Of a stretch of 64,000 bases of DNA, positions 5,875 to 51,898 are shown piece by piece (within the stretch, counting starts at the first letter, position 1; each line of letters starts with the position of its first letter). Under the pieces are notes generated by a model that saw only the letters and a program-made list of their open reading frames with translations, was not told the DNA's origin and did not search any database. The DNA comes from an uncultured bacterium. GTDB lineage: Bacteria > Armatimonadota > UBA5829. The stretch is taken from the NCBI GenBank assembly GCA_938074205.1, contig CALJES010000004.1:124001-188000 (forward strand). The letters are read 5' to 3'. Both the position numbers and the translations under genes were made by a program.

Positions 5875-5898
5875 GTAACAAAACTGAATACTGTTCGC

Positions 5899-6048
5899 TT
5901 GTAGGGCTCTAGGGAAGACGGTGAAAGTCCGTCACGGGCCCGCCGCTGTAACCGGGGACGAACCGGCCGTATCCACTGTCCGTAGGTAGCAACGGATGGG
6001 AAGGGGTCGGGGTAGGATGATCCGGAAGTCAGAAGACCTGCCCTACGA
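5899..6048 (+). promoter_or_regulatory. Cobalamin (B12) riboswitch
   Basis: The sequence carries the conserved B12-box and core elements: GGTGAAAGTCC (5920-5930), GGGCCCGCCGCTGTAACCGG (5936-5954) and GGAAGTCAGAAGACCTGCC (6023-6042). GTAGGG (5901-5906) pairs with CCCTAC (6041-6046) to close P1. This matches the adenosyl/hydroxocobalamin class (Rfam Cobalamin family). It ends about 30 nt before the pseudopilin start codon at 6080, so control of ribosome access at GGAGG (6070-6074) is likely. Such switches normally repress B12 uptake or synthesis genes when the cofactor is plentiful; none of the usual btu or cob genes follows here. Confidence 0.93.
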
Positions 6049-6079
6049 GCTTTCGAACGGTTCATCTTCGGAGGCAAAG

Positions 6080-29639: not shown

Positions 29640-30138
29640 CTCGTCCCCTCCTGGCATTTCTGAGAACGGACAGAGTTTACAACCGGGCTTTTGGATTGTC
29701 AATAATAAGTCTTTCAATTAGATGGCCAGTTAGCATTGTCATGGGGACCACTTAACACGGTTTACTCGTGAGCCAGGAGTAGCTCGGAAGACTATGTTTA
29801 TGTGTATACGCAAGCTGTTCATCATTATGCGGTAAACTTTGAACATAATTGTCCGTATTGAACAAACTGAGGTTTCAGTTAGAATCTATTATACTGCGAA
29901 CAAATGTGAGTTGTGTGTGAATCAACACGATAATTCAACCACAAATACTATACTAAAACGGTCGCACAATGTTATGTTATTAATCTTTAACTTGTCTATA
30001 GTGGACATTAGATTCTTGAAAACAAGGGCGTATGTGAATTGTGGGTCTTAGTTATGGAATGGATTATTAGGTCGACATTAGTGACCTTCATCGGGTAAGT
30101 GGACTAAAATTTTAACGAAATTGGAGGTCATTAACCGT
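29640..30138. other. AT-rich intergenic region before the HD-GYP gene
   Basis: About 500 bp with no supported gene and clearly richer in A/T (roughly 29760-30120) than its surroundings. Features: a candidate plus-strand promoter TTGAAC (29858-29863), 16 bp, TAGAAT (29880-29885), which would give a leader of about 245 nt; and a possible hairpin around 29911-29944 (TTGTG-TG-TGAAT pairing with ATTCA-AC-CACAA). No known riboswitch pattern was recognised. Short frames here lack ribosome sites. Confidence 0.4.
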
Positions 30139-31341
30139 ATGAAAAGGTCGGGCCGGTCTTCAAAAAGGTGTCGTAGAAGGTCGTTGCGGCTGGGATCACG
30201 ACTCCTTGAGAGCGCCTATACACAGGACGGCACTCTTCTACTCCGCGCCGGTGCCAGGATTGATACCCTTTCTGAACTAGAAAGACTAAATCAACCCGAC
30301 GTCAGATTCGGTGATAAACGCACTGCCGAAATTCCGCTTGACATAGATAACGAAAAGTCGCTCGATGCAGCTGCGTTAGAGCCCGACCATCAGGTTACCG
30401 AATTCTTGCAGAAGTTAGAGCGAGCTCGAGAAATTAAGCTCGGAGCCGTTGCTGAAGTAGAGGCTATATTTGGCAGCGTCTACGGTGGAGAAGCCATAAA
30501 TCTCGAAGCCGCCCGACGCACAGTTGCCCAACTGCTAGAGCAGCTTTTAGATGATCCTAGGGCTTTAGTTTCGCTCACCCAACTCAAGGACGTGGATTCA
30601 TACACTTACACGCACTCGGTTCACGTGAGCATTTTGGCTATGCATCTAGCTTTGCATACCGACTTCCGTGATCAAGTTGAGGCGATCGGACTGGGTGCGC
30701 TGTTGCATGACATAGGTAAGGTACAAATCCCGGTGAGTATCCTAAATAAGCAAGGTCCGCTAGATGCTGATGAGATGAATCAAGTAAAGCGACATCCTGT
30801 TCTGGGGGTAGAGCAGTTAAAAAAGTCCGGCGAAAAGCGCGCCGCGGTTCTTGATTGCGTTTTATATCATCACGAGAGAATCAGCGGACGCGGATACCCA
30901 GAGGGCAAACGAGGACATCACATTTCCCCTTATGCCATGATAACTGCCATAGCGGACGTCTATGACGCACTTACTACCGATCGACCCTACAGACCGGCAA
31001 TGAATCCCAAAGAAGCAATATTGCTGATGGCTCGACAAATGTCCGAGGATCTACACGAGAGGCTACTAGAATGCTTTGTTTCTCTGATAGGCTATTATCC
31101 CACTGGAAGCGAGGTGCAGCTCAGCAACGGGTTCAAAGCGCGTGTACTCAGGCATTATGCCTCTCGGCCCAACCAGCCGACATTAATCTTGACTGCTGAT
31201 GCTGAAGGGCAACCCATACCCGATATGCCGATAATCGATATGTCCAGGGAGCACAGCGTATCAATAGTGGGATTCGTGCGAGGTGAGGGAGGCTTTAAAG
31301 TTGCGCGGGACTTCGTGGACGACTTAAGAAAGGCTGCCTGA
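30139..31341 (+). CDS. HD-GYP domain protein, probable c-di-GMP phosphodiesterase
   Basis: 400 residues from ATG 30139 (GGAGG at 30123-30127). Basic N-terminus (MKRSGRSSKRCRRRSLRLG), then a segment resembling the DUF3391-like N-terminal part of HD-GYP proteins. The HD-GYP domain covers about residues 135-320: THSVHVSILAM, HD in LLHDIGKVQIP (about 190), HHERISGRGYPEG (GYP about 252-254) and ADVYDALTTDRPYRP. All metal ligands and the GYP motif are intact, so hydrolysis of c-di-GMP is expected. No membrane segment or receiver domain. A terminator follows. Confidence 0.9.
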   Translation: MKRSGRSSKRCRRRSLRLGSRLLESAYTQDGTLLLRAGARIDTLSELERLNQPDVRFGDKRTAEIPLDIDNEKSLDAAALEPDHQVTEFLQKLERAREIKLGAVAEVEAIFGSVYGGEAINLEAARRTVAQLLEQLLDDPRALVSLTQLKDVDSYTYTHSVHVSILAMHLALHTDFRDQVEAIGLGALLHDIGKVQIPVSILNKQGPLDADEMNQVKRHPVLGVEQLKKSGEKRAAVLDCVLYHHERISGRGYPEGKRGHHISPYAMITAIADVYDALTTDRPYRPAMNPKEAILLMARQMSEDLHERLLECFVSLIGYYPTGSEVQLSNGFKARVLRHYASRPNQPTLILTADAEGQPIPDMPIIDMSREHSVSIVGFVRGEGGFKVARDFVDDLRKAA

Positions 31342-31480
31342 GGTGGTATTGGTCTGAGGCCAAAAAACCTCGCCATCGCTTCAGAGGATGGAACCTGCGT
31401 CAGCTCGCTGGCGTAATAAAAAGTGGGATAAAGTAAAGGACGCCGCCAGCAGAAAGCCTCTTGACAGCCTCCTCTGGAAG

Positions 31481-31510
31481 CCCCGCGGAAAGGATGCCGC
31501 GGGGTTTCCT
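31481..31510 (+). terminator. Terminator of the HD-GYP gene
   Basis: CCCCGCGG (31481-31488) and CCGCGGGG (31497-31504) form an 8-bp stem followed by TTTCCT, 140 bp past the stop codon. Confidence 0.6.
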
Positions 31511-31582
31511 GCGTACTTCCAACACTTTCAGTCGTCACTATCAAACTGCTCGAAAGAACCTGCCCAGTGATTTCACGGTGAC

Positions 31583-32854
31583 TTAGGCAGCGTACAACCT
31601 GAAGGCGCAGCTTATCACTGCCGCATTAGCCGCTATCAGCACAATGCAGCCGGCAAGCAATCCGTATAACTTCGCTTTCTTGCTCCGCAGAATTCCGTCA
31701 AGCCCTATTACCCAAACGACTCCTGCAACTGTTGCAGTCGAGAGGAACAGCCTGCCTTGCAGGTTAGCCATTTGGTCGACGGTGAGTATGTACTGCAGCC
31801 ATAGGATGTACATAACCACAGGTGCCAACAGGAGAAATACTAAAGATGGCAGGTCGAACGAATTGCCGCGCCGGAAACGCAATACAGCTCCTGCGAGGAC
31901 AGCGATATTTGCCAAGGCGATTGGGTATACAACTTGTCTCAAGCTGCCAACAAAGGGCCACACGAGCCAGAACGGCATCCAGAAGTAGCCATATAGGGCC
32001 ATCGTTAGCCTGTATAGCAATTCGGCACCGAGCGCAGGGGCAGCTGCTAAAGCTAAAATTCCGCCAGGAATAACGGGGTTGTAGAGAGAATGCGGTGTCG
32101 GAGTTCCGTATGTTGCGATGTTGCGCGCAAACCACCAGCCGCTTACCAATAACACTATACCAAGGCTTGCAGCCGTTCTTAAAATGACTTTACTTGTGCC
32201 CAAACTACCGCGCACTATTGCTGCAGCGGCCGCAACAAGTAACAGAAAGACAAGCACAAAAGACTGCGCCTTCGTAAGTAACCCCAAACCTATCAATAAT
32301 CCAGTCACGAGCGAATCCCGCATCGACATCACGCCAGTCTTGAAATAGCGCAGCAAAGGGATCATAGCCCACGTGAAGAGAAGTGTTATGAGGTTTTCGT
32401 TGTTAATTACACCGGCCATGTAACTTGCTGTCGGGATGCCTGCTACGAATCCCGCGCAAGCGAGCGCGTAGGCTTCCTTTTTGAAATACTCCCTGGCAAG
32501 CAAATACGCAGCCCAGATTCCTGCAGCACCGATGGGTATGTTTGCCAATCGCAAAATCCGCCACAGTGTGTCATCCTCAACCCCCACAAGCCGTGCTATG
32601 GCAAACGGGATTGCCATAAGCAGGTAATACAGGGGAGGCTGGTGACCTTCGTGGGTGGCTTTCGAGTGCTCGTTTGGCGTTTCTTTGTGTGCTATAGTGG
32701 GCAACGCGAGTTCTGTTGCAATCGAGCGGATGTATATGAAGTGGGCAGGTTCGTCAGGACCATACTTGAGCTTCGTTGCGAATGAGTAACAAAGCGCCAA
32801 CGCGCAGTACACCGCGATTATACCGGCGAGGATCTTGTTGGCGGGCGTTTTCAC
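31583..32854 (-). CDS. Multi-pass membrane glycosyltransferase (ArnT/PMT-like, GT-C fold)
   Basis: 423 residues with about ten hydrophobic helices. The first periplasmic loop has KYGPDEPAHFIYIRS, the acidic motif typical of polyprenol-phosphate-sugar-dependent GT-C enzymes, followed by THEGHQPPLYYLLMA. Such enzymes move a sugar from a lipid carrier to lipid or protein at the outer face of the inner membrane. DUF2142-type proteins are an alternative. Monocistronic on the minus strand, convergent with the HD-GYP gene. Confidence 0.75.
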   Translation of the reverse strand: MKTPANKILAGIIAVYCALALCYSFATKLKYGPDEPAHFIYIRSIATELALPTIAHKETPNEHSKATHEGHQPPLYYLLMAIPFAIARLVGVEDDTLWRILRLANIPIGAAGIWAAYLLAREYFKKEAYALACAGFVAGIPTASYMAGVINNENLITLLFTWAMIPLLRYFKTGVMSMRDSLVTGLLIGLGLLTKAQSFVLVFLLLVAAAAAIVRGSLGTSKVILRTAASLGIVLLVSGWWFARNIATYGTPTPHSLYNPVIPGGILALAAAPALGAELLYRLTMALYGYFWMPFWLVWPFVGSLRQVVYPIALANIAVLAGAVLRFRRGNSFDLPSLVFLLLAPVVMYILWLQYILTVDQMANLQGRLFLSTATVAGVVWVIGLDGILRSKKAKLYGLLAGCIVLIAANAAVISCAFRLYAA

Positions 32855-32870
32855 ACCGCGGAGTATAGCA

Positions 32871-32907
32871 CATGACGCGGGGAAAAGCTATCTCTCCCCG
32901 CGTCATG
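32871..32907 (-). terminator. Strong hairpin terminator downstream of the pseudopilin remnant
   Basis: A perfect 12-bp stem, CATGACGCGGGG (32871-32882) with CCCCGCGTCATG (32896-32907). On the minus strand it follows the truncated pseudopilin; the downstream sequence lacks a good T-run, so its strength is uncertain. It also lies 17 bp upstream of the membrane glycosyltransferase start. Confidence 0.5.
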
Positions 32908-32953
32908 TTATATCAAGAGATCGGCTGGCCTGCGAATACTCAGCAGCCTAACC

Positions 32954-33283
32954 CTAATAACGAACACCCCGATGGGATCTGTCTATGTTTGCATCCGTGT
33001 AGCCTACTGGTGCCCAGCCGCAGCCTGTAATAGCGTGCTTGGCGTGACCGTCGAGATAGATATAGATCGTGCCGTCTTTATGCGGATATAACGGCGGCTC
33101 CATGATGCCGCTTCCCGCGCGAGTTTCGGTTCTGCAAGCCACGTCCGGACCCAAGGCATAGTCGAATGCGAAAATCTTCTTCGAAGGCGGCTTGTAGCGG
33201 CGCCACACCTTCATATCCAGAGCTTGCACTTCCGCGATAGTGCGGCCAATGCCGCTAATACTAACATCCGCATGATTGCACAT
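32954..33283 (-). pseudogene. C-terminal remnant of an H-X9-DG pseudopilin
   Basis: 109 residues. The segment YPHKDGTIYIYLDGHAKHAI fits the H-X9-DG motif found at the C-terminus of pseudopilins such as the one at 6080-6835, but the prepilin signal and long helix are missing. The frame opens directly after an in-frame TAG, 3 bp past the peroxiredoxin stop, with no ribosome site. Most simply a 5'-truncated gene; translation as a small protein coupled to the peroxiredoxin gene cannot be excluded. Confidence 0.6.
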
Positions 33284-33286
33284 ATG

Positions 33287-34012
33287 CTACTTTAAAGGCG
33301 GGGACTGCTCTTTCGGCAGCTTCTTGAAGCACATGAACCAGTCCAGGCAATAGTAATCGTCGCCTGCCTGCTCCACTCGCTCTTTGGCGGCACCGCAGGA
33401 TCCTGGCGGCGGAATAATTACGTCATCCCCTGGCTGCCAGTCGGCAGGAGTCGCGCAGTTGTGGGCGTCAGATGTCTGCATAGCCTTCAGCAGACGCAGG
33501 ATTTCGTCGAAGTTTCTACCATTCGACAGAGGATAGTATATAATCGCCCTGATCTTGGAGTGCGGATCGATGAAGAACACAGCCCTTACGGCTTTGGTAT
33601 CGTCCGCGGATGGCTGAATCATGCCGTACTTGCGGGCAACTTCCATCTTGATGTCGCTGATCACGGGGTAGGTGATCTCGACATTTTCCATATCCTTGTA
33701 TTTGATCTTTTCCTTGATCGTCCTCAGCCAGGCGATGTGGCTGTAGGTGCTGTCTATGGAAAGGCCGATGAGCTCGCAGTTGAGCTTCTTGAGCTCCGGC
33801 TCGATCTTGGCAAATGTCATAAACTCGGTGGTACACACAGGTGTGAAGTCCGCTGGGTGGCTGAATAGGATAACCCACTTGCCCTTGTAATCGTCCGGAA
33901 ACTTGATTCTGCCTTGTGTTGTCTCAGCTTCGAATTCCGGCGCATCCTCGCCGATCAACGGCACGCGCGATGTTTCCGGGGCACATTCGTACACTTCCTC
34001 GTATACTTCCAT
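33287..34012 (-). CDS. Peroxiredoxin, archaeal-type (Prx6/AhpC family)
   Basis: 241 residues from ATG 34012 with a near-perfect AAAGGAGG ribosome site. Peroxidatic Cys60 lies in HPADFTPVCTTEF. A long C-terminal arm carries extra cysteines (about 222 and 228, YYCLDWFMCFKK), as in Aeropyrum-type thioredoxin peroxidases, as well as GSCGA near residue 207. Reduces hydrogen peroxide and alkyl hydroperoxides in the cytoplasm. The truncated pseudopilin follows at once. Confidence 0.93.
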   Translation of the reverse strand: MEVYEEVYECAPETSRVPLIGEDAPEFEAETTQGRIKFPDDYKGKWVILFSHPADFTPVCTTEFMTFAKIEPELKKLNCELIGLSIDSTYSHIAWLRTIKEKIKYKDMENVEITYPVISDIKMEVARKYGMIQPSADDTKAVRAVFFIDPHSKIRAIIYYPLSNGRNFDEILRLLKAMQTSDAHNCATPADWQPGDDVIIPPPGSCGAAKERVEQAGDDYYCLDWFMCFKKLPKEQSPPLK

Positions 34013-34214
34013 AGTCTTTTTCCTCCTTTGATGTTTTTGTTCAGCTTCCCATCCTTTTGTCCGCCGCAAACTGGCACTACGGATTGGGGGATGCTGGTTC
34101 ATTTTGAATTACCCATTAACCATAACCTGTAAACTCCGGCGCGGTTGCTGGGGTTGTTTTGAGTAGGCCTCTGATCACATCAAACTGGTACGCCATTGTA
34201 GTGTTTAGACCCTA

Positions 34215-34242
34215 TTGATTGGCTCTGGTCTGACAATAATGT
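34215..34242 (+). promoter_or_regulatory. Candidate promoter of the type IV pilus operon
   Basis: TTGATT (34215-34220), 16 bp, TAATGT (34237-34242), 51 bp before the pilM start. Moderate match only. Confidence 0.4.
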
Positions 34243-34292
34243 TAGTGGATATGGACTCTTGAGAGGACTTCTCATCGGGGGGACTTTGGCAC

Positions 34293-35414
34293 GTGTTGGG
34301 TCTTTTTTTTGCTAAGGAGTCGGTTGTCGGAGTCGATATAGGTTCATCAACTCTGAAGGTTGTCGAGGCGGTCTCCACCAACACCGGATGGGAACTGCTG
34401 GCGGCTGCCGTCGACCGGTGTCCGCCGGACGCAATCAAAGACGGGGTCGTGCGCGACGTCCAGGAGGTAGGCGCAGCGATCCGCAGAATGTTGCGCGAGG
34501 CCGGAATAAAGGCCACCGGCGCTGTGTGTGGTATTTCTGGGTCGCAGGTCATAGTGCGCCAAGTGCAGTTCCCGAAGATGTCAGAAGCCCTACTGCGAAA
34601 GTCGATCAAATACGAAGCGGGCAAGTTCATATCCAGCTCAATTGAAGACAGTGTTGTGGAGTTTGAAATCATCGGCGACGCTGAGGAGCCGGGGCAAATG
34701 AACGTGTGGTTGGTTGCCGCGCCCAGGGAGATGGTGGATAGCAGAGTTGCAGTCCTGGAAGCGGCAGGGCTTGAACCCCTTGCCGTGGATGTTGAGGCGT
34801 TCGCTCTAATACGTTCTATCGTAGAGTTGAGCTCCACCGATAGATTCCTGAATGAGACCGTCGCTCTTGTAGACATGGGTGCCAGCCATACGGATGTGAA
34901 CATCGTCAGCCGCGGAGAGTTTGCCCTCACTCGAAATATCCCAATTGCCGGGGACAGCTTCACGAACGCAATAAAGAACCTTACGGGATGCTCTTTTGAG
35001 GAAGCCGAACAGGCTAAGCTAGAAATGGCGCGGGCGTGCCCGTGGGATGATCAGGATGTGGCGCAGCGCGAAAACCGCAACTGGCGAGCCGTTCAGCCCT
35101 TGATCGACGAGCTCATTCGCGAGATTAAGCGTTCCATCAATTTTTATCACTCCCAGTTTCCCGAAGGCGACACAGGCTCTTTCGTTAATCGCGTCCTGCT
35201 CACTGGCGGCAGTTCGCAGATGGTCGGTATAGACAAGTATGTGGCGGACAAGCTTGGCACTCAAACTGAGATGGCCCGACTTTTTTCTGATACTGCCGTC
35301 TCCGCCAAGGACTTGTCGGCGGAATTAAAGGCGCAACACGAATCTGTGTTAGCTGTAGGTACCGGACTCGCGTTGAAAGAGCTTATTGCTGATTCAAAGC
35401 AGAAGGCGGCTTAG
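34293..35414 (+). CDS. pilM: Type IV pilus assembly ATPase-like protein PilM
   Basis: 373 residues; GTG start with GGGGGG 10 bp upstream. Actin-like fold (PF11104): phosphate-1 motif VVGVDIGSSTLKVVE, VALVDMGASHTDVNI and the adenosine motif RVLLTGGSSQMVGID. PilM forms a cytoplasmic ring bound to the PilN N-terminus. First gene of a pilMNOPQ-pilB-pilT-pilC-sigma operon. Confidence 0.95.
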   Translation: MLGLFFAKESVVGVDIGSSTLKVVEAVSTNTGWELLAAAVDRCPPDAIKDGVVRDVQEVGAAIRRMLREAGIKATGAVCGISGSQVIVRQVQFPKMSEALLRKSIKYEAGKFISSSIEDSVVEFEIIGDAEEPGQMNVWLVAAPREMVDSRVAVLEAAGLEPLAVDVEAFALIRSIVELSSTDRFLNETVALVDMGASHTDVNIVSRGEFALTRNIPIAGDSFTNAIKNLTGCSFEEAEQAKLEMARACPWDDQDVAQRENRNWRAVQPLIDELIREIKRSINFYHSQFPEGDTGSFVNRVLLTGGSSQMVGIDKYVADKLGTQTEMARLFSDTAVSAKDLSAELKAQHESVLAVGTGLALKELIADSKQKAA

Positions 35415-35500
35415 CGGCATAGTCGTGCTGACGACACGCTCAACCGGTTGGGAAAGCGCTTGGGTGAATTAAGCAGTGTCTGTAGGAAAGGAGTGCTCCG

Positions 35501-36106
35501 ATGCCTTCCATTAATATGATTGCCCCGCGCAGAGCCGAGAAGCAAAAGCTTGAGCGCGATATGCGCAGGGTCGTGGCGGTGATACTGGTTGAATTTATAT
35601 GTGCTATCGCGCTTGGAGGTTGGCTGACTGCGCGTCTGGTGGCGACAAGGGGGCGGATTGCCGATTTGGATGTCCAGCTTGCCAGGATGAGACCCACAGT
35701 GAAACAGATCGAAGACTACGAACGTGCCACAAGACGGCTCCAGCCCAAGATCGATCTGCTAAACGAGGCCAAACAGCGAACTATGCGCTGGCACAGAATA
35801 CTCGACGCACTGACATTAAGCCTTCCGAAGCCCAGCTATCTGACGCGAATCGCAACAAACCAATCAGCCGGGCGCCAAGAGTCTTCACCCACTGTGGCCC
35901 TTACAGGCATTACCATATCGCAAGCCATCATCGGTGAAACGATGCTCCGGCTTTCGTCGGTGCCCGACTTGGCTCAAGTGGATCTGAACTACAGCCAGCC
36001 GACCTCCGTCAATGGTGCACCTGCAATCGAGTTCGAGCTTGGTGCGAAGATGAAAGACGACAAAGATCGGAAAGGAGCGCAAGCTAATGGCCGCGTTCAA
36101 TCTTAA
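35501..36106 (+). CDS. pilN: Type IV pilus inner-membrane protein PilN
   Basis: 201 residues; AAAGGAG precedes the ATG. The cytoplasmic N-terminus PSINMIAPRRAEKQK corresponds to the PilM-binding INLLP-type motif, followed by one membrane helix (VVAVILVEFICAIALGGWL), a coiled coil and a ferredoxin-like periplasmic domain. Partner of PilO. The pilO start overlaps its end by 20 bp. Confidence 0.92.
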   Translation: MPSINMIAPRRAEKQKLERDMRRVVAVILVEFICAIALGGWLTARLVATRGRIADLDVQLARMRPTVKQIEDYERATRRLQPKIDLLNEAKQRTMRWHRILDALTLSLPKPSYLTRIATNQSAGRQESSPTVALTGITISQAIIGETMLRLSSVPDLAQVDLNYSQPTSVNGAPAIEFELGAKMKDDKDRKGAQANGRVQS

Positions 36107-36854
36107 AGCCAGCGCAAGGGCGGTGACAGTGCTCATCGTTATAGCTGTGCTGGTTTTTTTTGCGACGGTGCTCATGTATTTGGGGATGGCTGGCAAGCTC
36201 AAAAGCGCGGTTTCCGAGATGCAAGCCAAGACGAAGCAGGTAGCCGAAAGCCGCAGTGTGGTTGAGAAACTGGAGGCCACCAAACTTGCATACCTCGATG
36301 CCCGCAGCCAAGTGCGCTACCTAGAGACCTCTGTTTCTACCCAGGAGTTCATACCCACGCTGCTCAAGCAGATTGAACACCTTGGCAAATCCGTCAACCT
36401 AAAAGTGTTAGGCGTTCGCCCGTCGCTTGAGGTTCAAAAGAGAGTTGCCAAGAGAAGCATCTCCAGCAGCAAGGAGGCGTCCGAGGGCAATTTGGAAGAA
36501 GCCTCAAAAACCGCAAACGGCAACGAACAAGGTTCGGCTCGCAAATCGCAACCTTACGACGAGCTGCAGATCAGCTTACAGGTAGAGGGCTACTACATGG
36601 ACCTTCTAGACTTCCTGTATCGGTTGACAAGTTTTCCGAAAATAGTGGCGGTGGACGCCGTTGAGATAACGCCGCTTGTCAATCGATTTCAGGCTGCAGG
36701 TTCGCCTAGGCTAAATATGAAGCTGACACTAACGGCTTTCATACTGAAAGACGAAAATAAGTCTGAAAGCAGCGAATCACGCACCGGCTCTAGCACTAGA
36801 TTCGAAACTCCTGAAAAAGCTTCGCTCAGGCAGGCAACGGGGGTGGCTGGATAA
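36087..36854 (+). CDS. pilO: Type IV pilus inner-membrane protein PilO
   Basis: 255 residues. One helix (AVTVLIVIAVLVFFATVLMYLG), a coiled coil (about residues 37-85), then a periplasmic domain with DELQISLQVEGYYMDLLDFLYRLTSFPKIVAVDAV, characteristic of PilO. A low-complexity Ser/Glu linker (residues about 128-155) is inserted. Aligns the inner-membrane complex with the secretin. Last base overlaps pilP. Confidence 0.9.
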   Translation: MAAFNLKASARAVTVLIVIAVLVFFATVLMYLGMAGKLKSAVSEMQAKTKQVAESRSVVEKLEATKLAYLDARSQVRYLETSVSTQEFIPTLLKQIEHLGKSVNLKVLGVRPSLEVQKRVAKRSISSSKEASEGNLEEASKTANGNEQGSARKSQPYDELQISLQVEGYYMDLLDFLYRLTSFPKIVAVDAVEITPLVNRFQAAGSPRLNMKLTLTAFILKDENKSESSESRTGSSTRFETPEKASLRQATGVAG

Positions 36855-37495
36855 TGACGCTTGAACAAAAAAGGGCTATCGGGCTGGCTGTTTTGGGTGT
36901 TGTGGTGGTCGCTAGTGTTGCCTATATTTCGTTTTCTGTTGCATTGCCCAAAACGACAGCCGCGAAAACGGCCAACCAAACCAGCAAGGACCAAGCCCAA
37001 TCTGATAAGCCAACAGAAGATACAGCGGTTGCTTCGGCGGCAGAACTTTCCACAGAGCATCCGCCGCTTCCGCGACGGGATCCCTTCGCGTTCCAACCGC
37101 TTCCTGGTGCACAGTTAGAAACCGCTGAAGCAAGCCAGCCGCGGCGTGTGACCAAGCGCCTTAAATTGGACTTTTCAAATATGTCAAGCCGATTGCCGGC
37201 TATTAATGTTAAGCCTATAAACCCGTTCGTTGCCAATAACCAGAGTTCGCCTTCGGATACGCAGGCTCTGAATCCTGAACCGGAAGAGGAACTTGTGGTC
37301 ACGGGAGTTGTGAGGGGCGAAAGCAACGTGGCCATAGTCAGAATCGGCGCGACAGGGCGGCATGTTGTTCGCGAAGGTCAGGTAATCGACGGACGCTACA
37401 GGGTTGCATCCATAAACACCGATCACGTGGTGTTCATATATAACAACCGGCCCATAGCCATAAAAGTGGGAGGAAATAGGAATGCTGCTAGGTAG
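36854..37495 (+). CDS. pilP: PilP/GspC-like pilus alignment protein
   Basis: 213 residues. N-terminal membrane helix (IGLAVLGVVVVASVAYISFSV), a Thr/Ala/Lys-rich linker, PRRDPFAF and a C-terminal beta domain (ELVVTGVVRGESNVAIVRIGATGRHVVREGQVIDGRYRVASI) like PilP/GspC HR domains, which contact the secretin. Unlike proteobacterial PilP it has a transmembrane anchor rather than a lipobox, closer to GspC. Identified by both domain and position between pilO and pilQ. Confidence 0.82.
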   Translation: MTLEQKRAIGLAVLGVVVVASVAYISFSVALPKTTAAKTANQTSKDQAQSDKPTEDTAVASAAELSTEHPPLPRRDPFAFQPLPGAQLETAEASQPRRVTKRLKLDFSNMSSRLPAINVKPINPFVANNQSSPSDTQALNPEPEEELVVTGVVRGESNVAIVRIGATGRHVVREGQVIDGRYRVASINTDHVVFIYNNRPIAIKVGGNRNAAR

Positions 37496-39956
37496 AACTC
37501 GGGGCAAGTCCTCATTTATTATGTGGTGGGTGCTATGCACGGCTTGTGCATTAATTGTTGCGCCGACGCTCTCATGGTCAGATGCCAACGTCATAACGAG
37601 CGTTAAGGTCGTTAATACACCGGATAAAGTCGTAATCACCGTGCGAGGCGAATCACCGCTCAGGTTCACGCCTCTCATTTCTGCCGCGGGCAAATACTTA
37701 GGTTTTCAGTTTCCCTGCGCGCTTGCAGCAAAAGGCGGCGCAGTTCCCATTAGAAGCGGTGGGATCTACAGCGTAAGGTATTCGAACTTCCAGGCGCGCC
37801 CGCCCATTTCGCGCGTGGTAGTGAATACAACCAAGCATCTAAAATACTCCGCTCGGCGTTCAGATGACGGCAAGGAGATAGAAATCGAGGTTTACAAGTC
37901 CACCTCAGGCACAACATCCTTGCGCTCGGCGGCTGCGGCGGGGCCCTCGTCGGCTAGTAATGTCAATACTCAACCTGCAGTTGCGACGCAGAGGCCGGCT
38001 ACTTCGACAAGCTCAGATTCCGAGCCAATAGAGGCTCAGCCGACTGATGCCACGCAGTCGCCCGCAGATCGGCTCTGGGCTTACAAAGCTATAGCTGAGC
38101 GATCGAGAATGGCGGCACGAACCGCAAACGCAGCCGGCACAACGATTCAGGTCGCCTCTGCCAGTCTAAGCTTGCCTTCATCTTCGGAAATCGCAGCTCA
38201 GCCGCAAACAAGGGTGTTGGGAACTGTTCAATCCACCGGCGATCCAAAACCGATTGAGCCGTCGCAGCAGACGGACTCCGCGGCGCCTACAGATAGGCAA
38301 GCTCCCAAGAGGTTTGCTTTTGCGAATTCCGGCAGCTTGCGAGCCGGCGCGTCGGAGCGGAAGGTTTCTGTCAACTTCCTTGGAGCCGATATAAACGACG
38401 TTCTCAAAGCACTATCGGTGCAAAGCGGCAAGAACATCGTATCCAGCAAGGACGTCACCGGCAACGTCACGGTCAGCCTGTCGAATGTGAGCCTTGAGGA
38501 GGCCCTGGACTACGTAACCAAACTGAGCGGATATACCTACACCAAGGACGGTGACACATACCTGGTCTCTACAAAGGAATCACTTCGGTCTCTCGCGGGG
38601 GAATCGAGCCCGGATGCAAAGACCGAACTGGTTAAGCTCAGTTACGCTAAGGCAGACGACGTCGTCTCGCTGCTCAAATCGCGTTTTCCCGATATAGTGG
38701 TAAGCAAAATCGGAGTGGAGCCGGCGCCCAAGGGTGCTGCTGAACAACCCGGTGCCCAGGGTCCCATAGGACAGAAGCATAACTTGCTAGTCTTATCGGG
38801 TCCGACGGACTCCGTCACGGAAGCCAAAAAGCTCGCTGAGCAGTTCGAGCAGACGCTTAGAGTTCAAGCGATACAGTCGACGCGAGCAACCTACCGCGTT
38901 AAGTTTGCGAGCCCTTCGCAGCTTGCCCAAGCGCTTATGGCGCTAGTTCCCGGCGTCGAGGTCGTCTTTGCGCCGACCAGCGATTTCGAGCTGGTTAAGT
39001 TTAAATCGGCAAAGACATCTCCCGGACAGGCTCCGCAGGTTGAGCGCGAATTCGACACCGCCGGTGGCAAGGGCTCTGGCGATCAAGCTCGAGGAACGAT
39101 CCCCGGGGGCGGTGCGGACCCAACAGGGAAGGGCAGCGGACCGGCCGGACCTGTGACCAATGCTCGCACGATCGTCATAGTAGGCGACGAGCAGTCCGTG
39201 GCGAAGGCACTTGAAATTGCCCAGCAGTTGGACGTCAAAGCGCCGCAGATAAAGATAGACGCCAAGATAAGCAGCATAAATAAGTCCGGGGAGAAAAAGC
39301 TTGGTTTGGAATGGCAGTGGGGAGACTTGGTAGTTCTAGAAGGGTTCACGGACTACGACAAGACCACCGACATGCTCCCAGACGGAACCAACAAACAGAA
39401 CGTCCGGATCTCCCACAAGAAGATGTATCGGCAGCCTTGGGACTTTGCTGCGACGCTTGACGCGCTTGTTACCAGCGGGGACGCTCAGGTATTGGCCTCT
39501 CCGAGCATTGTTTGTCTGGAACGAAACCCCGGCGTATTCTTCGTGGGCGACGAGGTTACCTACGTGCAGAGGGTGGAGACGACACCGACCGGCCAAAACA
39601 TCCTCACGGACACAAAGCGCGTTGGCGTGCAGATGGTTGTCGCAGGCGAGATAAATGACGACGGTTACATCACGCTCTATCTGCATCCGGAGGTAAGCAC
39701 GCTCAAGCTCTCCGTCGAGCAGGGTGTTGCGCTGCCGATAGTGTCGAGCCGATTTACCGACCACGTAGTGCGCGTCAAGAGCGGCCAAACCATTGTTATA
39801 GGCGGCTTAATCCGAAGCGACGAAGTAGAGGAAATGCGCAAGGTGCCGTTCCTAGGCGATCTGCCCCTCTTTGGTCAGTTGTTTAGGCACACGCAGAAGA
39901 CTAAGGACGAGACCGAGGTAGTGATGTTCATAACGGCCACGATCCTTCAGGACTAG
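37482..39956 (+). CDS. pilQ: Type IV pilus secretin PilQ
   Basis: 824 residues. Signal peptide about 1-31; AMIN domain (VVITVRGESPLRFTPLISAAGKY, residues about 40-130); low-complexity Ala/Thr/Ser region; STN/N0 domain (KVSVNFLGADINDVLKALSVQSGKNIV); N1 domains (LVKLSYAKADDVVSLLKSRF); Gly-rich insertion near residues 525-550; secretin core from about 590, ending VRVKSGQTIVIGGLIRSDEVE and VPFLGDLPLFGQLFRHTQKT, diagnostic of secretins. Forms the outer-membrane pore for the pilus, evidence for a diderm envelope. Start overlaps pilP by 14 bp. Confidence 0.96.
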   Translation: MLLGRTRGKSSFIMWWVLCTACALIVAPTLSWSDANVITSVKVVNTPDKVVITVRGESPLRFTPLISAAGKYLGFQFPCALAAKGGAVPIRSGGIYSVRYSNFQARPPISRVVVNTTKHLKYSARRSDDGKEIEIEVYKSTSGTTSLRSAAAAGPSSASNVNTQPAVATQRPATSTSSDSEPIEAQPTDATQSPADRLWAYKAIAERSRMAARTANAAGTTIQVASASLSLPSSSEIAAQPQTRVLGTVQSTGDPKPIEPSQQTDSAAPTDRQAPKRFAFANSGSLRAGASERKVSVNFLGADINDVLKALSVQSGKNIVSSKDVTGNVTVSLSNVSLEEALDYVTKLSGYTYTKDGDTYLVSTKESLRSLAGESSPDAKTELVKLSYAKADDVVSLLKSRFPDIVVSKIGVEPAPKGAAEQPGAQGPIGQKHNLLVLSGPTDSVTEAKKLAEQFEQTLRVQAIQSTRATYRVKFASPSQLAQALMALVPGVEVVFAPTSDFELVKFKSAKTSPGQAPQVEREFDTAGGKGSGDQARGTIPGGGADPTGKGSGPAGPVTNARTIVIVGDEQSVAKALEIAQQLDVKAPQIKIDAKISSINKSGEKKLGLEWQWGDLVVLEGFTDYDKTTDMLPDGTNKQNVRISHKKMYRQPWDFAATLDALVTSGDAQVLASPSIVCLERNPGVFFVGDEVTYVQRVETTPTGQNILTDTKRVGVQMVVAGEINDDGYITLYLHPEVSTLKLSVEQGVALPIVSSRFTDHVVRVKSGQTIVIGGLIRSDEVEEMRKVPFLGDLPLFGQLFRHTQKTKDETEVVMFITATILQD

Positions 39957-40036
39957 GACGAACCGGTCTAGCTTCCTGGTTCTCCTGGGACTGAAGGGCT
40001 GCGGTCCCGAGCGAGCGTTAAAAGCTTACGCTCGGT

Positions 40037-40066
40037 GTTGCCCCGCCGCGAAAGCGGCGGGGCAAC
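40037..40066 (+). other. Long GNRA-loop hairpin between pilQ and pilB
   Basis: GTTGCCCCGCCGC and GCGGCGGGGCAAC form a perfect 13-bp stem closed by GAAA. A smaller stem CGAGCG/CGCTCG lies just upstream. No T-run follows, so a classical terminator is unlikely; RNA processing, transcript stabilisation of the pilM-Q part, or a Rho-independent-like attenuator are possibilities. The 170-bp gap is the largest inside the pilus operon. Confidence 0.55.
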
Positions 40067-40130
40067 TGGAAGGTTAGCCTGAGAAGCTCAGAGCCATGCC
40101 GAATGAACGAACCGGCCTTCGAGGGAAGTG

Positions 40131-41864
40131 ATGCAACAAACCGAACCGATCGGTGAGATATTCGTAAGAAAAGGACTCATAACGCGGGACCAACTCAGAC
40201 AAGCTCTTGAAAGGCAGAAGCTGCTCAAGAGACAGGAGAGTCTGGGGGATGTTTTGGTGAGCATGGGATTAATTACCGAGAGAGACCGCGTTATGTGCCT
40301 GGGAGAACAGTGGGGAGTGCCATTTGTCGAGCTCGGAGACATCGAGGTCGATAGCTCTGTTGTGAAGCTCGTTCCTCAGAGCACTGCCAGAAAGCTCAAA
40401 GTTGTCCCCATCGGCAGGAAGAACGGCAAGCTTACGCTTGCCATGAAAAATCCCCTCGATATATTTGCCATCGATGAAGTCAGGATGGTCTCAGGCTCTG
40501 ACATCGAGCCAACAATCGCACTAGAGGAAGACATACTCAATGCTATCAGCCGAATCTATCGTGCAGAAGCCAACGTCTCCGAACAAGTCTCCGAGGTCAT
40601 CAAGGAGTTTGATACCGAACAGATCGATATCACCAGCGTCGAGGGCTACGCTGAGGACGAAGACAATATCTCGATCGAGCACCTGCGCGAGCTCTCCGAG
40701 GAAGCGCCTGTTATCAAGCTGGCAAACCTGATTATCGGACGAGCCGTGTCTGATGGGGCAAGCGACATACACATCGAACCTGCTCGGGATTGTGTGCGCG
40801 TTCGGCTCAGAATCGACGGAATCATGCACGAGGTTATGCAAATACCCAAGAAGGTGCAACCCTCCCTCATCTCCCGATTCAAAATCATGGCCGAAATGGA
40901 CATCGCCACCAAGCGCTCGCCCCAGGACGGTCGAATAAGCGCTGTGATAGACGGAAAGCCTTACGACTTCCGCGTTTCCACTCTGCCTTCGGTATTTGGA
41001 GAAAAGGTGGTTCTGAGAATCCTGGATAAAAGCGCAATATGCATCGGGCTTAACAAACTGGGGCTTCTGCCTGAAACCCTGGAGAAGTTCGAAAGCCTTA
41101 TAGCTCGCACCTACGGAATAATACTTGTCACCGGACCGACCGGCAGTGGCAAGTCCACAACTCTTTATTCGGTTCTTTCGAAGCTCAACTCCGGCGAGAA
41201 GAACATACTCACGATAGAGGACCCTGTCGAGTATGAGCTTCCCGGACTAACGCAAGTTCAGATCAACCCGCGAGCAGGGCTCACCTTTGCCACTGGGCTT
41301 AGGACTATGCTTCGTCAGGACCCGGACATCATAATGGTTGGCGAGATTCGCGATGCAGAGACGGCTACGATCGCTACCGAGGCTGCGCTAACGGGCCACC
41401 TAGTGCTCTCGACACTGCATACCAACGATGCTCCCGGTGCGCTCACCAGAATGATCGACATGGGCATCGAGCCGTTCCTGATCGCCTCCAGCGTGATAGG
41501 CGTCATGGCTCAGAGACTTGTAAGAGTGGTCTGTCCCAAGTGCAGAGAACAGTATCAACCTCCGCGCGATGCTGTTAAGCGACTCGGGATTGAAATTGAT
41601 AGCGATAGTAGGGTCACCTTTTTCCGTGGTCGGGGTTGCGACCATTGTCGCGGCACCGGCTACAAGGGCCGCGTCGGAGTATACGAACTTATGATAATGA
41701 ACGATCAAATACGCGACCTGGTGCTTCGCAAGGCGTCGGCGCACGTGATAAAGGAAGCCGCGGTGGAGTCGGGAATGAAAACGCTTCGTGACGACGCTAT
41801 TGCGAAAATACTTCTCGGTCAGACAACCCTTGAAGAATGCTTGCGAGTGATCTACGCGGGTTAA
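40131..41864 (+). CDS. pilB: Type IV pilus extension ATPase PilB (GspE family)
   Basis: 577 residues from ATG 40131 (GTG 40128 possible), GAGGG just upstream. N-terminal MshEN-type domain (GEIFVRKGLITRDQLRQAL ... LGDVLVSMGLITERDRV), which in MshE/PilB homologues binds c-di-GMP. ATPase core has Walker A GPTGSGKSTT, Asp box TIEDPVEY, Walker B QDPDIIMVGEIRD, His box STLHTND and a tetracysteine zinc site (CPKCREQY ... CDHCRGTGY). Powers pilus polymerisation. Confidence 0.97.
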   Translation: MQQTEPIGEIFVRKGLITRDQLRQALERQKLLKRQESLGDVLVSMGLITERDRVMCLGEQWGVPFVELGDIEVDSSVVKLVPQSTARKLKVVPIGRKNGKLTLAMKNPLDIFAIDEVRMVSGSDIEPTIALEEDILNAISRIYRAEANVSEQVSEVIKEFDTEQIDITSVEGYAEDEDNISIEHLRELSEEAPVIKLANLIIGRAVSDGASDIHIEPARDCVRVRLRIDGIMHEVMQIPKKVQPSLISRFKIMAEMDIATKRSPQDGRISAVIDGKPYDFRVSTLPSVFGEKVVLRILDKSAICIGLNKLGLLPETLEKFESLIARTYGIILVTGPTGSGKSTTLYSVLSKLNSGEKNILTIEDPVEYELPGLTQVQINPRAGLTFATGLRTMLRQDPDIIMVGEIRDAETATIATEAALTGHLVLSTLHTNDAPGALTRMIDMGIEPFLIASSVIGVMAQRLVRVVCPKCREQYQPPRDAVKRLGIEIDSDSRVTFFRGRGCDHCRGTGYKGRVGVYELMIMNDQIRDLVLRKASAHVIKEAAVESGMKTLRDDAIAKILLGQTTLEECLRVIYAG

Positions 41865-41873
41865 GGAGGGAAT

Positions 41874-43001
41874 ATGCGAGGCGAACTGGCAGTTGATGAT
41901 TTCAGCGATTTCTTGGCGGAATCGAACGCGCCCTCAGTGGAGGAAGTGCACTTGGACGATCTACTGCGCGAGGCTACGGAGCGTGGAGCCTCGGACCTTC
42001 ATCTTACCGTCGGCCTGCCGCCTGTAATCCGCGTCGATGGTTCCCTAACCCATCTGAGATATCAGCCGCTTTCTCCCAGTGATACTCAGAGGTTGGTCTA
42101 CGACATACTCACCACCGATCAAGTCCAGCACTTCGAAACCGTTCACGAACTGGACTTCTCATACGGAGTGCGCGGAGTAGGCAGGTTTAGGGTGAACGTC
42201 TACAAGCAGCGTGGAAGCGTCGGAGCAGCGCTTCGGAGCATACCGGACCGCATTCCAACTTTCGAACAACTCAATCTGCCGCCTGTTCTGCGCGAGTTGA
42301 GCCGCAGGACCAGCGGCCTGATACTCGTAACAGGACCCACCGGTAGCGGCAAGTCTACCACAATCGCCTGCATGATAGATACGATCAATTCCGAAAGACC
42401 CGTGCACATAATGACGATGGAAGACCCCATAGAATATCTCCACCGGCACAAGAGGGGCATGGTGAATCAGCGCGAATTGGGCACGGACACCGATTCCTTC
42501 GCCAACGCGTTGAGGGCTGTCTTAAGGGAAGACCCGGACGTCATACTCATTGGCGAGATGCGCGACCTTGAGACCATCCAGGCAGCATTGACTCTCGCCG
42601 AAACGGGGCACTTGGTGTTTGGCACACTCCACACCCGCAATGCTCCCCAGACTATAGACCGAGTAATCGACGTATTTCCTCCGCATCAGCAGGAGCAGAT
42701 CAGGGTACAGCTTTCTAACACGCTCGAGGCAGTGATAGCCCAGCAGCTTATGCCACGAATAGGTGGCGGACGAATAGCGGCTTTAGAGATATTGGTTGCC
42801 ACCTCTGCCGTGCGCAACTTGATCCGAGAAGGCAAATCTCACCAAATCTATAGCGCTATCGAGACCGGCGCCCAGTACGGCATGCAGACGATGGATAAGT
42901 CTCTTGCAGACCTTTATCGAAACGGCATCATCACGCTAGAAGAAGCGGAAGCTCGCTCGATAGATAGGGAAAATCTCAAACGCTTCCTACAGGGAGGCTG
43001 A
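41874..43001 (+). CDS. pilT: Type IV pilus retraction ATPase PilT
   Basis: 375 residues; AAGGAGGG before ATG 41874. PAS-like N-terminal domain (LLREATERGASDLHLTVGLPPVIRVDG), Walker A GPTGSGKSTT, TMEDPIEYLH, Walker B EDPDVILIGEMRD, GTLHTRNAPQTIDR with the His box, and the conserved AIRNLIREGK-type motif (SAVRNLIREGKSHQI). Drives pilus retraction. Directly follows pilB (9 bp). Confidence 0.97.
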   Translation: MRGELAVDDFSDFLAESNAPSVEEVHLDDLLREATERGASDLHLTVGLPPVIRVDGSLTHLRYQPLSPSDTQRLVYDILTTDQVQHFETVHELDFSYGVRGVGRFRVNVYKQRGSVGAALRSIPDRIPTFEQLNLPPVLRELSRRTSGLILVTGPTGSGKSTTIACMIDTINSERPVHIMTMEDPIEYLHRHKRGMVNQRELGTDTDSFANALRAVLREDPDVILIGEMRDLETIQAALTLAETGHLVFGTLHTRNAPQTIDRVIDVFPPHQQEQIRVQLSNTLEAVIAQQLMPRIGGGRIAALEILVATSAVRNLIREGKSHQIYSAIETGAQYGMQTMDKSLADLYRNGIITLEEAEARSIDRENLKRFLQGG

Positions 43002-43052
43002 TATTTTGTCTACCAGTTGCTAACTCGAAATGCCGAAGGGAGGTAGCAAGAC

Positions 43053-44270
43053 GTGCCAACGTTTGCCTATACAGCAATAGATACCAACGGTAAGACTGTA
43101 AAAGGTCGCACGGATGCGGAAAGCGAAAATATCCTGATTTCCAAGCTTCACGCACAGAACCTTCACGTGCTTTCGATCAATGAAGAGAAAAGCGAAGTCG
43201 CGAAAGCCGGAGGCAGAGTGACTGCGCCGGGAAGGAAGGTCAAGCTTAAGAACCTGGTTATCTTCAGTCGGCAGTTCGCAACAATGATAGATGCCGGCGT
43301 CGCAATCGTCCGATGTCTGGACATACTCGAAAACCAGACCAAGGACCCGGTGCTCAAGAACGTCATCGCACAGTGCAAGAAGGACGTCAAGGGCGGAATG
43401 AGCCTTACAGATGCATTCGCCAAACACCCCAACGTGTTCTCGCGCCTCTATGTGAACATGGTAAAGGCGGCGGAGACGGGCGGAATTCTCGATAAGATAA
43501 TGGATCGTCTGGCCACATTCCTCGAAACCGAACAGGAAGTTCGCTCCAAGATCAAGTCGGCAATGATATACCCGGTACTTGTTTTGATCTTTGCGTTGTG
43601 TATGGTGGTTGCGCTTTTCATGTTCGTATTGCCGAAGTTTAAGGAGCTCTTCGATTCGTTGGATGTGGAGCTACCTGCAGCTACGCGTGCACTGTTCGGC
43701 ATGAGCGAGATGATGCGCTCCTATTGGTATGTGGGACTTGTCGGGATTGTAGCGGGTGCGATCGGCTACAAGTGGTATAGGAACACCGAGCAGGGCGCTT
43801 GGCAAATCGACATGCTCAAGCTCAAGTTTCCTGTTATAGGGGAGCTGGTGCAGAAGATGGCGATCTCGCGCTTTGCTAGGACATTCGCCACACTGATACA
43901 TAGCGGCGTGCCCATGATGAGATCGCTGGAAATTGTCGGCGAGACGGCAGGCAACCGAGTGATAGCGCACGCTGTCGAGAACGCTCGCAACGCTATAAGG
44001 GAGGGGCAGAAAATCAGCGCTCCGCTGGCTCAGAGCGGACTGTTTCCCGGCATGGTCACGCACATGATCGACGTGGGCGAGGAAACGGGTAGGCTTTCTG
44101 ATATGCTTGCAAAGGTCTCGGATTTCTACGATCAGGAAGTCGAGAATGCCGTAAAGGCGCTAACGTCGCTGATAGAGCCGTGTTTGATAGTCGTAATGGG
44201 CGGCATTGTCGGGTTTATAGCTGTTTCGATTATGGCGCCGATATTCAAGCTCATCAGCGCAGTAGGCTAG
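43053..44270 (+). CDS. pilC: Type IV pilus platform protein PilC (GspF family)
   Basis: 405 residues; GTG start with GGGAGG upstream. Two GspF domains (about residues 70-192 and 275-396) with LVIFSRQFATMIDAGVAIVRCLDI and FARTFATLIHSGVPMMRSLEIV, three main membrane helices (YPVLVLIFALCMVVALFMFVLP; YVGLVGIVAGAIGY; CLIVVMGGIVGFIAVSIMAP). Inner-membrane platform on which PilB and PilT act. Confidence 0.96.
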   Translation: MPTFAYTAIDTNGKTVKGRTDAESENILISKLHAQNLHVLSINEEKSEVAKAGGRVTAPGRKVKLKNLVIFSRQFATMIDAGVAIVRCLDILENQTKDPVLKNVIAQCKKDVKGGMSLTDAFAKHPNVFSRLYVNMVKAAETGGILDKIMDRLATFLETEQEVRSKIKSAMIYPVLVLIFALCMVVALFMFVLPKFKELFDSLDVELPAATRALFGMSEMMRSYWYVGLVGIVAGAIGYKWYRNTEQGAWQIDMLKLKFPVIGELVQKMAISRFARTFATLIHSGVPMMRSLEIVGETAGNRVIAHAVENARNAIREGQKISAPLAQSGLFPGMVTHMIDVGEETGRLSDMLAKVSDFYDQEVENAVKALTSLIEPCLIVVMGGIVGFIAVSIMAPIFKLISAVG

Positions 44271-44356
44271 CCTCTTGTAAGGTAGATGCAAGGCTGAGGG
44301 CTTTCGAAGTCGGTTCACCGATAGATTGTGTAGTATCTAAGACGGAGAGGCGAGTG

Positions 44357-45700
44357 ATGCGACTTATAAAGGGCAGAAAACTGACAGAAGAAGAAATCCA
44401 AAACCTCATCTCTGAGTACGCGGCCACGAAGGATCCTGCGATTCGTGACCAAATCGTTATGCAATACACTAACCTTGTAGAAAGCGTTGCGCGCCGATTT
44501 ATGGGGGCTTGCGAATCTGCTGAGGACCTAGTGCAAGAAGGATTCGTCGGTCTGATTAGGTCTGTGGATAAGTACGATCCCGATATGGGCGTCAAGTTCT
44601 CCACGTATGCAACGCACTTCATAATCGGGGAAATCAAGCACTACTTGCGCGACAAGGGCAAGATGATAAAGGAGCCGGCTTGGCTCCAAGAGCTCAACCA
44701 GAGGATGACCCGGGTTATGGAGGCGCTGAGCCAGGCTCTTGGACGCGCCCCTACCGAAAAAGAAATCGCTCAAGTTATGCAAATGTCGGAACGCAGCGTC
44801 AGGGAAATTCTGATGACCAGGGAAGTCTTCAAGGTTGCATCCCTTGACGGAGAACGCGAGGACGCTTCCGGCCCTAAGGAATCAGAGAAAATAAAAGATG
44901 AAAAGCTGATCGCCTTCCAATTGCCTGTTGAGGACAAGATCGTGTTGGAAACAGCATTGCAGAGGCTTAAGGATATAGAACAGCGGGTTATACACATGCA
45001 CTTTTATAAAGGCCTCAACCAAACTGAGATCGCCAAGCGACTGAGCATAAGCTGCAACTACGTCTCCCATATAATTCGCAACGGAACGAAGAAGCTGAGA
45101 AAGATACTGATCACCGATGAGGTGCGGGACGTGCAAATACAGCGAGCCCTTGTATCCAAACGTGCAAGGGGTCGCCTGACAGCTGAGCCTGAGAGTGTTT
45201 TGGATCCTACTACGCGCGTTTACAGCCGTGAGTACTTCCTTCAACGACTGGACGAGGAGCTTAGCCGGGCTTTTCGTGAACGATATCTGGTTGCATTGCT
45301 GCTGATAGACGTGCACCTGCCGGAGAATATGGATCGATATCTGCGTTTGATGCGCAAGGACGACGTGCTGGCTGAAGTTGGGCAGACGATCCGCAGAAAT
45401 GTAAGGAAAATGGATTTACTTGGCCGAGTTGGGGATCACTGCTTCGCGCTGATGTTGCCTCATACGTTCGAACACGCATCTAGGGTTGCTGCGCGAGTTG
45501 GCAACCTAGTGGGCTCCGTTGCGGTCGATCCGGGCAGGGGAGCCTCGCAGTTAACTTGCTCCGCGCGGATCGGGATAGCAAGGTACCCTGAAGATGCAAT
45601 GGACAGACGAGGACTCTTGGAAAAAGCTGCATCGCAGATCGAGATAGAGCTGGATGCGCTGATGGCAGAGCCGCTGCAGCAGTTCGGCCAGGCTGCGTAG
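44357..45700 (+). CDS. Sigma-70 family factor fused to a degenerate GGDEF domain
   Basis: 447 residues from ATG 44357 (GGAGAGG upstream); the frame upstream overlaps pilC and is rejected. Residues about 30-100 are sigma region 2 (AEDLVQEGFVGLIRSVDKYD, FSTYATHFIIGEIKHYLRD), 115-160 region 3, 195-252 region 4 with helix-turn-helix NQTEIAKRLSISCNYVSHII; closest in style to the SigB/SigF/SigG type. Residues 283-428 look like a GGDEF domain (DPTTRVYSREYFLQRLDEEL, VALLLIDVHL, LGRVGDHCFALMLPHT, SARIGIARYPEDA). The active-site GGDEF reads GDHCF, so cyclase activity is not expected; it may bind a nucleotide or a protein. Last gene of the pilus operon, 86 bp after pilC. Confidence 0.85.
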   Translation: MRLIKGRKLTEEEIQNLISEYAATKDPAIRDQIVMQYTNLVESVARRFMGACESAEDLVQEGFVGLIRSVDKYDPDMGVKFSTYATHFIIGEIKHYLRDKGKMIKEPAWLQELNQRMTRVMEALSQALGRAPTEKEIAQVMQMSERSVREILMTREVFKVASLDGEREDASGPKESEKIKDEKLIAFQLPVEDKIVLETALQRLKDIEQRVIHMHFYKGLNQTEIAKRLSISCNYVSHIIRNGTKKLRKILITDEVRDVQIQRALVSKRARGRLTAEPESVLDPTTRVYSREYFLQRLDEELSRAFRERYLVALLLIDVHLPENMDRYLRLMRKDDVLAEVGQTIRRNVRKMDLLGRVGDHCFALMLPHTFEHASRVAARVGNLVGSVAVDPGRGASQLTCSARIGIARYPEDAMDRRGLLEKAASQIEIELDALMAEPLQQFGQAA

Positions 45701-45907: not shown

Positions 45908-45971
45908 AAGACACCGTGCAAGATTTAGTATTCCCCGCGACGACTTGCTGCCTGCGCCAATTTGTATTCGG

Positions 45972-47333: not shown

Positions 47334-47367
47334 ATTCAGGCAAGAAGGTGTGGGAAGGGAATCTGAT

Positions 47368-48141: not shown

Positions 48142-48142
48142 A

Positions 48143-50777: not shown

Positions 50778-50786
50778 GCATAATCT

Positions 50787-51863: not shown

Positions 51864-51898
51864 TCGCAGTGATATCGCTCAGAGATTGAGGATAACAA

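Follow-up and report, generated by a model that had tools for sequence, protein, structure and literature searches.

The fusion gene and its family

The DNA analysed here (the window) is a 64,000-nucleotide stretch from an uncultured bacterium of the phylum Armatimonadota (lineage UBA5829; contig CALJES010000004.1, positions 124,001–188,000 of the forward strand), and its host genome comprises 3.02 Mb and is 97.88% complete. The window contains a pilus operon (34293–45700) with the gene order pilM-N-O-P-Q-B-T-C, which closes with a gene that encodes, according to Pfam, a sigma-70 factor fused to a GGDEF domain. An earlier note on this DNA had reported that an intact HD-GYP enzyme, a PilB with an MshEN domain and this fusion lie within 16 kb, and all three were recovered with Pfam; it had further proposed that they form a cluster with the pilus operon through which cyclic di-GMP (c-di-GMP) acts on pilus extension and transcription. 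The main interest of the locus lies beyond those claims, in the GGDEF half of the fusion, which has lost its active site and kept its I-site, and in the Ala-Ala with which the fusion ends. The fusion and its parts are located as follows.

44357–45700, + strand: sigma-70/GGDEF fusion, 447 amino acids (Pfam sigma-70 regions 2, 3 and 4 and GGDEF)
44456–45103, + strand: sigma-70 regions 2, 3 and 4 (Pfam)
45197–45634, + strand: GGDEF domain without the catalytic motif (Pfam, E = 1.5e-20)
45404–45415, + strand: I-site RxxD, R350–D353 of the 447-residue protein
45431–45445, + strand: place of the GGDEF loop, degenerate (GDHCF)
45692–45697, + strand: Ala-Ala codons at the C-terminus of the fusion

The likely start codon is ATG 44357, which is preceded by GGAGAG and lies 86 bases past the pilC stop; GTG 44180, which overlaps pilC, is the less likely start. 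The sigma half carries regions 2, 3 and 4 of the sigma-70 family (Pfam E = 1.6e-20, 3.5e-10 and 7.6e-14, respectively). Its best NCBIfam model, TIGR02980 (SigB/SigF/SigG), scores 183.7 bits, below the cut-off of 234.35, so that by this score it falls outside the subfamily; among solved sequences it comes closest to 8x6g and 1l0o, sigma factors of SigB and SigF type. An AlphaFold model of the fusion, computed from a three-row alignment, has a mean predicted local distance difference test (pLDDT) score of 65.5, with blocks of the GGDEF half between 60 and 91 and a C-terminal tail at about 35, which fits the expectation for a free end. Foldseek matched the GGDEF half to a GGDEF domain of Thermotoga maritima with a TM-score of 0.86 by target length.

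A search of 275 Armatimonadota genomes for the fusion yielded 180 strong matches (best E up to 2e-55), the genome of the window included, and the 95 weaker-matching genomes were left out of this count. The 121 aligned fusions comprise that of the window and those of 120 loci fetched from other genomes; 118 of these genomes belong to the 180, and the remaining two (G001 and G059) came from a separate search. The genomes of the relatives are often fragmented. In 78 of the 120 loci the gene directly upstream of the fusion is pilC, with the same orientation and no more than 700 bases away, and a contig edge cuts seven more; families without this linkage include f8, f11, f17 and f27. One narrow scan of a broader contig collection with a single protein returned two fusion loci, both from named Armatimonadota relatives. 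Literature searches covered open-licence full text, where nothing was found that joins Armatimonadetes, GGDEF and sigma factor, and where a phrase search for GGDEF-sigma fusions returned only papers that are off-topic judging by their abstracts.

Conservation of the I-site and the Ala-Ala tail

The RxxD I-site is the c-di-GMP-binding site of other GGDEF proteins. Its Arg is kept in all 121 fusions and its Asp in 120, the single exception being Asn. A GG[DE]EF-type motif is found in none of the 121, the metal-place Asp survives in 18, and by sequence the family (RxxD 120/121, GG[DE]EF-type 0/121) matches what defines an I-site receptor with a degenerate GGDEF domain. R357 and R380, which would correspond to R366 and R390 of PleD, the latter a secondary I-site residue, are kept in 114 and 119 fusions, respectively. 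Only R297, E301, R304, R350, D353 and R380 are conserved at 97% or more among the columns of the GGDEF half. Each of the five other GGDEF proteins of the window genome has the GG[DE]EF loop, and three of them have RxxD. Selection has thus retained the I-site residues of the fusions and released the active site, the pattern expected of a c-di-GMP receptor and not of a cyclase. We infer from this conservation that c-di-GMP probably binds at the I-site of the fusion.

The second feature is the C-terminus, which is Ala-Ala in 93 of the 121 fusions and Val-Ala in four. Together, the fusions ending in Ala-Ala use all 16 pairs of Ala codons, so the constraint acts on the protein. Members of family f16 agree pairwise at 1.0 and 0.94 in the two final residues and at 0.06–0.20, close to random, in the ten residues that precede them. 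Ala-Ala ends 18 of the 830 other open reading frames (ORFs) in the same loci (closed, gene-like and at least 200 amino acids long); given this background and the codon usage, chance and base composition were rejected as the origin of the tail. Mapped on a FastTree tree from which the tail was excluded, the tail label needs eight changes, against a shuffled mean of 25.3. The transfer-messenger RNA (tmRNA) tag of the window genome, ATTQYAHAA, likewise ends in Ala-Ala, and the genome contains a ClpX match of 622 bits. A conserved Ala-Ala at a free end, in 93/121 fusions against 18/830 in the background, is what characterizes a substrate of ClpXP type, and the tail is therefore a candidate ClpXP/SsrA-type degron that would limit the amount of fusion. 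No open-licence full text was found that links diguanylate cyclases to a C-terminal alanine degradation signal for ClpXP.

The tail is not confined to the fusion. Four of the 56 gene-like ORFs of the window end in Ala-Ala, namely those of PilM, the fusion, the HD-GYP protein and a glycosyltransferase-like membrane protein. Loci of families f1–f5 yielded, with fusions left out, 66 different proteins of GGDEF or HD-GYP type, of which 51 end in this way; this sample is non-random, as six weak GGDEF rows were picked deliberately (0/6 with Ala-Ala) and the rest are mostly best-scoring rows. In the sister genus g5, which shares the family code and has no fusion, none of 18 such proteins does; the GC content of the g5 loci is 0.568 and 1/44 of their other ORFs ends in Ala-Ala, so low GC does not account for the missing tails. 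As controls within the window genome, one of 16 response regulators ends in Ala-Ala, itself an HD-GYP protein, as do two of 16 sigma factors, the fusion and one other (the frame of one, L180, is uncertain). Among the other ORFs of the f1–f5 loci 14/71 end in Ala-Ala; these 14 include three HD-GYP proteins missed by the filter, and the remainder are mostly neighbours of c-di-GMP genes. The neighbours of diguanylate cyclase and HD-GYP genes that end in Ala-Ala include six frames of 361–362 amino acids (L284, L288, L289, L304, L306 and L309), of which the one tested (L284) is a REC-Hpt protein, and, beside HD-GYP genes, four frames of 323–332 amino acids (L192–L195), of which the two tested (L192 and L193) are HEAT-repeat proteins.

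Most of the sampled families with an Ala-Ala fusion also have a PilM that ends in Ala-Ala (loci L213–L272), the exceptions being f17, where only the fusion has the tail, and f25, where only PilM has it. After six stretches whose longest frame was not PilM had been dropped, the tails of PilM and the fusion could be compared in 40 genomes: both end in Ala-Ala in 24, neither in eight, only the fusion in six and only PilM in two (Fisher p = 0.0012). Covariation of the two tails is not claimed, as the tree contains only one or two independent pairs. Two genomes with family code f1 and without the fusion, G007 and G010, have no GGDEF match and no match to the HD-GYP protein of the window, and it is possible that c-di-GMP signalling has been lost in these genomes, which also lack the fusion.

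The pilus operon, PilB and the HD-GYP gene

The other members of the operon and the nearby HD-GYP gene are as follows.

34293–35414, + strand: pilM (Pfam PilM_2, E = 3.3e-58); the protein ends in Ala-Ala (codons 35406–35411)
35501–36106, + strand: pilN
36087–36854, + strand: pilO
36854–37495, + strand: pilP-like gene (Pfam T2SSC)
37482–39956, + strand: pilQ, secretin
40128–41864, + strand: pilB, with an N-terminal MshEN domain (motif halves 40146–40217 and 40239–40310)
41874–43001, + strand: pilT
43053–44270, + strand: pilC, which adjoins the fusion on its upstream side
30121–31341, + strand: HD-GYP gene, near the operon and not a member of it; the protein ends in Ala-Ala

The MshEN domain of PilB is recognized by Pfam (E = 1.4e-22), and PilB passes the curated NCBIfam model for the MshE-type c-di-GMP motif, NF053729, scoring 51.2 bits where 38 are required. 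PMC5013675 describes the motif as two 24-residue RLGxx...LxxxLxxQ halves with a five-residue spacer. Measured against that published motif, PilB has Pro in one half and Ser in the other in place of the leading Arg, Arg instead of a key hydrophobic-cluster Leu in the second half, and a spacer of seven residues, not five. Searched with our own pattern, 11 of 26 PilB proteins (those of relatives and of the window) contain both motif halves, all with a spacer of seven, and the other 15 contain one or none. c-di-GMP binding by PilB is possible, since the GSPII-B domain of Thermus thermophilus PilF binds tightly without the Arg (PMC11731258), and is not confidently predicted from the sequence.

The HD-GYP frame (30121–31341, +) has its first ATG at 30139. 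Read directly from the sequence, the phosphodiesterase motifs HDIGK, HHE and GRGYP show no loss, and Pfam HD_5 matches with E = 1.5e-27. The gene lies about 3 kb upstream of pilM, with opposite-strand genes in between. Among 20 genomes, that of the window included, a clear orthologue was found in G002 (72%), where it lies on the pilM contig about 7.6 kb from pilM; the only other orthologue, that of G003, is distant (38%). HD-GYP matches occur in three of the 120 relatives' loci, a weak test in which most loci stop at pilM. The genome holds 11 HD_5 matches, and by arithmetic one would be expected in a given 16 kb about 6% of the time, so that the nearness of the gene to the operon may be due to chance. 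The proposed clustering with the pilus operon thus holds for PilB and the fusion and fails for the HD-GYP gene, which gene order (opposite-strand genes, orthologues only in G002 and G003 among the 20 genomes) does not support as part of the operon unit. Likewise, the proposed connection of c-di-GMP, pilus and sigma factor finds backing in the fusion, through its conserved I-site, its lost active-site motif and its frequent place after pilC, and none was seen for the HD-GYP gene beyond one congener (G002).

Between the HD-GYP gene and the operon lies a gene for a PMT_2-type membrane protein (31583–32854, −) whose C-terminus is Ala-Ala. The fusion is directly followed by a polysaccharide cluster (45945–53101, +) with flippase-like, methyltransferase, Wzy-like polymerase and glycosyltransferase genes. 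A cobalamin riboswitch (5887–6059, +; 102.9 bits), far from the operon, is the sole Rfam match in the window.

Interpretation and known systems

We propose, with a probability of roughly one half, that the fusion is a one-chain alternative sigma factor that senses c-di-GMP, carries an Ala-Ala degron of ClpXP type and often forms the last gene of the pilus operon. The GGDEF half would have lost c-di-GMP synthesis and would bind the messenger at the RxxD I-site, and binding would alter the availability of the sigma half to RNA polymerase. The amount of the fusion would also be limited by its C-terminal Ala-Ala acting as a degron, a tail that it shares with most of the sampled c-di-GMP enzymes of f1–f5 and with PilM. 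Since receptor, regulator and Ala-Ala end share one chain, c-di-GMP might, by comparison with PopA and CtrA (see below), gate either the activity of the sigma factor or the degree to which a protease of ClpXP type can reach it. Because the fusion gene so frequently closes this operon, one transcriptional switch would take input from both pilus production and the state of c-di-GMP. More tentatively, Ala-Ala may in this part of the Armatimonadota be a tag shared across the c-di-GMP network (diguanylate cyclases, HD-GYP proteins and some partner proteins), PilM and the sigma fusion, with one reader, likeliest ClpXP, that clears or gathers the unit and with the fusion as its transcriptional arm, in effect CtrA and PopA joined into a single protein.

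Several observations weigh against this proposal. R297, E301 and R304 are conserved like the I-site, which means that ligand binding is not proven by conservation, and retention of the I-site could serve folding or dimer contacts. The relative placing of the two halves in the predicted model is unreliable. The tail is absent from 14 of 30 fusion-bearing families, and outside f1–f5 none of four c-di-GMP enzymes found by chance ends in Ala-Ala, two of them from families whose fusion does. Different upstream neighbours are found for 35 of the 120 fusions, and PilM_2 matches occur in 270 of the 275 genomes, far exceeding the fusion, so pili do not need it.

The conserved charged columns, together with the ability of degenerate GGDEF domains to act as contact surfaces, would also suit a GGDEF half that serves only as a module for dimerization or partner binding, with a structural RxxD and no sensing of c-di-GMP. 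We regard this as unlikely: the I-site persists in 120 of the 121 fusions while the active-site motif has gone from all of them, and RxxD is not needed for the GGDEF fold, because two of the five loop-bearing GGDEF proteins of the same genome lack it. The opposite extreme, an active diguanylate cyclase mounted on a sigma factor, has the Pfam GGDEF match on its side and was rejected as extremely improbable, with the GG[DE]EF-type motif in no fusion and the metal-place Asp in few.

The tail might instead be an address, by which some hub or adaptor, located at the base of the pilus or at a pole of the cell, gathers PilM, the fusion and the c-di-GMP enzymes while the I-site still senses the messenger. 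Its occurrence on PilM, on the fusion and on most sampled diguanylate cyclases and HD-GYP proteins of f1–f5, as well as on the REC-Hpt and HEAT-repeat neighbours, would agree with such a role; however, the tmRNA tag of the genome ends in the same two residues and points to a protease, no candidate for such a hub came to light (no search aimed at one was made), and an address seems improbable to us. The earlier suggestion that the HD-GYP protein, PilB and the fusion make up one c-di-GMP cluster, with one signal acting on pilus extension and transcription, draws on their proximity, on the G002 orthologue that likewise shares a contig with pilM and on the motif score of PilB. Set against the scarcity of HD-GYP orthologues, the near absence of the gene from the relatives' loci (subject to the limit given above) and the motif deviations of PilB, it is very unlikely.

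The known c-di-GMP control of a sigma factor in Streptomyces acts through a separate anti-sigma factor, and a fused receptor, if true, would make that control more direct. Should the tail prove to be a degron, one destruction mark would extend across much of a second-messenger network, and the resetting of c-di-GMP signalling would become testable by a two-residue change. The proposal, if true, would also offer a first handle on regulation in Armatimonadota, a phylum for which little c-di-GMP literature was found.

In Caulobacter, the adaptor PopA is a protein of its own that contains receiver domains, CtrA is a response regulator and the CtrA degron is located C-terminally; in the WhiG-RsiG system of Streptomyces the ligand is carried by the separate anti-sigma factor. 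PilB resembles MshE-type ATPases in its tandem motif layout and in passing NF053729, and differs from them in its Pro and Ser leads, the Leu-to-Arg change and a spacer of seven rather than five (PMC5013675, PMC11731258). The sigma half is closest to SigB, SigF and SigG by model and by solved sequences, and the fusion departs from them in falling below the TIGR02980 cut-off and in its C-terminal GGDEF domain. The degenerate GGDEF protein PopA of Caulobacter crescentus binds c-di-GMP at its I-site and is required to bring CtrA to ClpXP (PMC12564702, PMC7526171), and PMC8138137 gives the sequence of the CtrA degron as DPNEQVNAA and labels it as N-terminal. The fusion is like this system, in which a degenerate GGDEF domain with RxxD is tied to a transcription regulator whose degron ends in Ala-Ala; unlike PopA and CtrA, it has receptor, sigma factor and Ala-Ala end in one chain, and for it no adaptor is known. 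In WhiG-RsiG, too, an alternative sigma factor is under c-di-GMP control (PMC13232838); unlike in Streptomyces, sigma factor and receptor domain here form a single protein.

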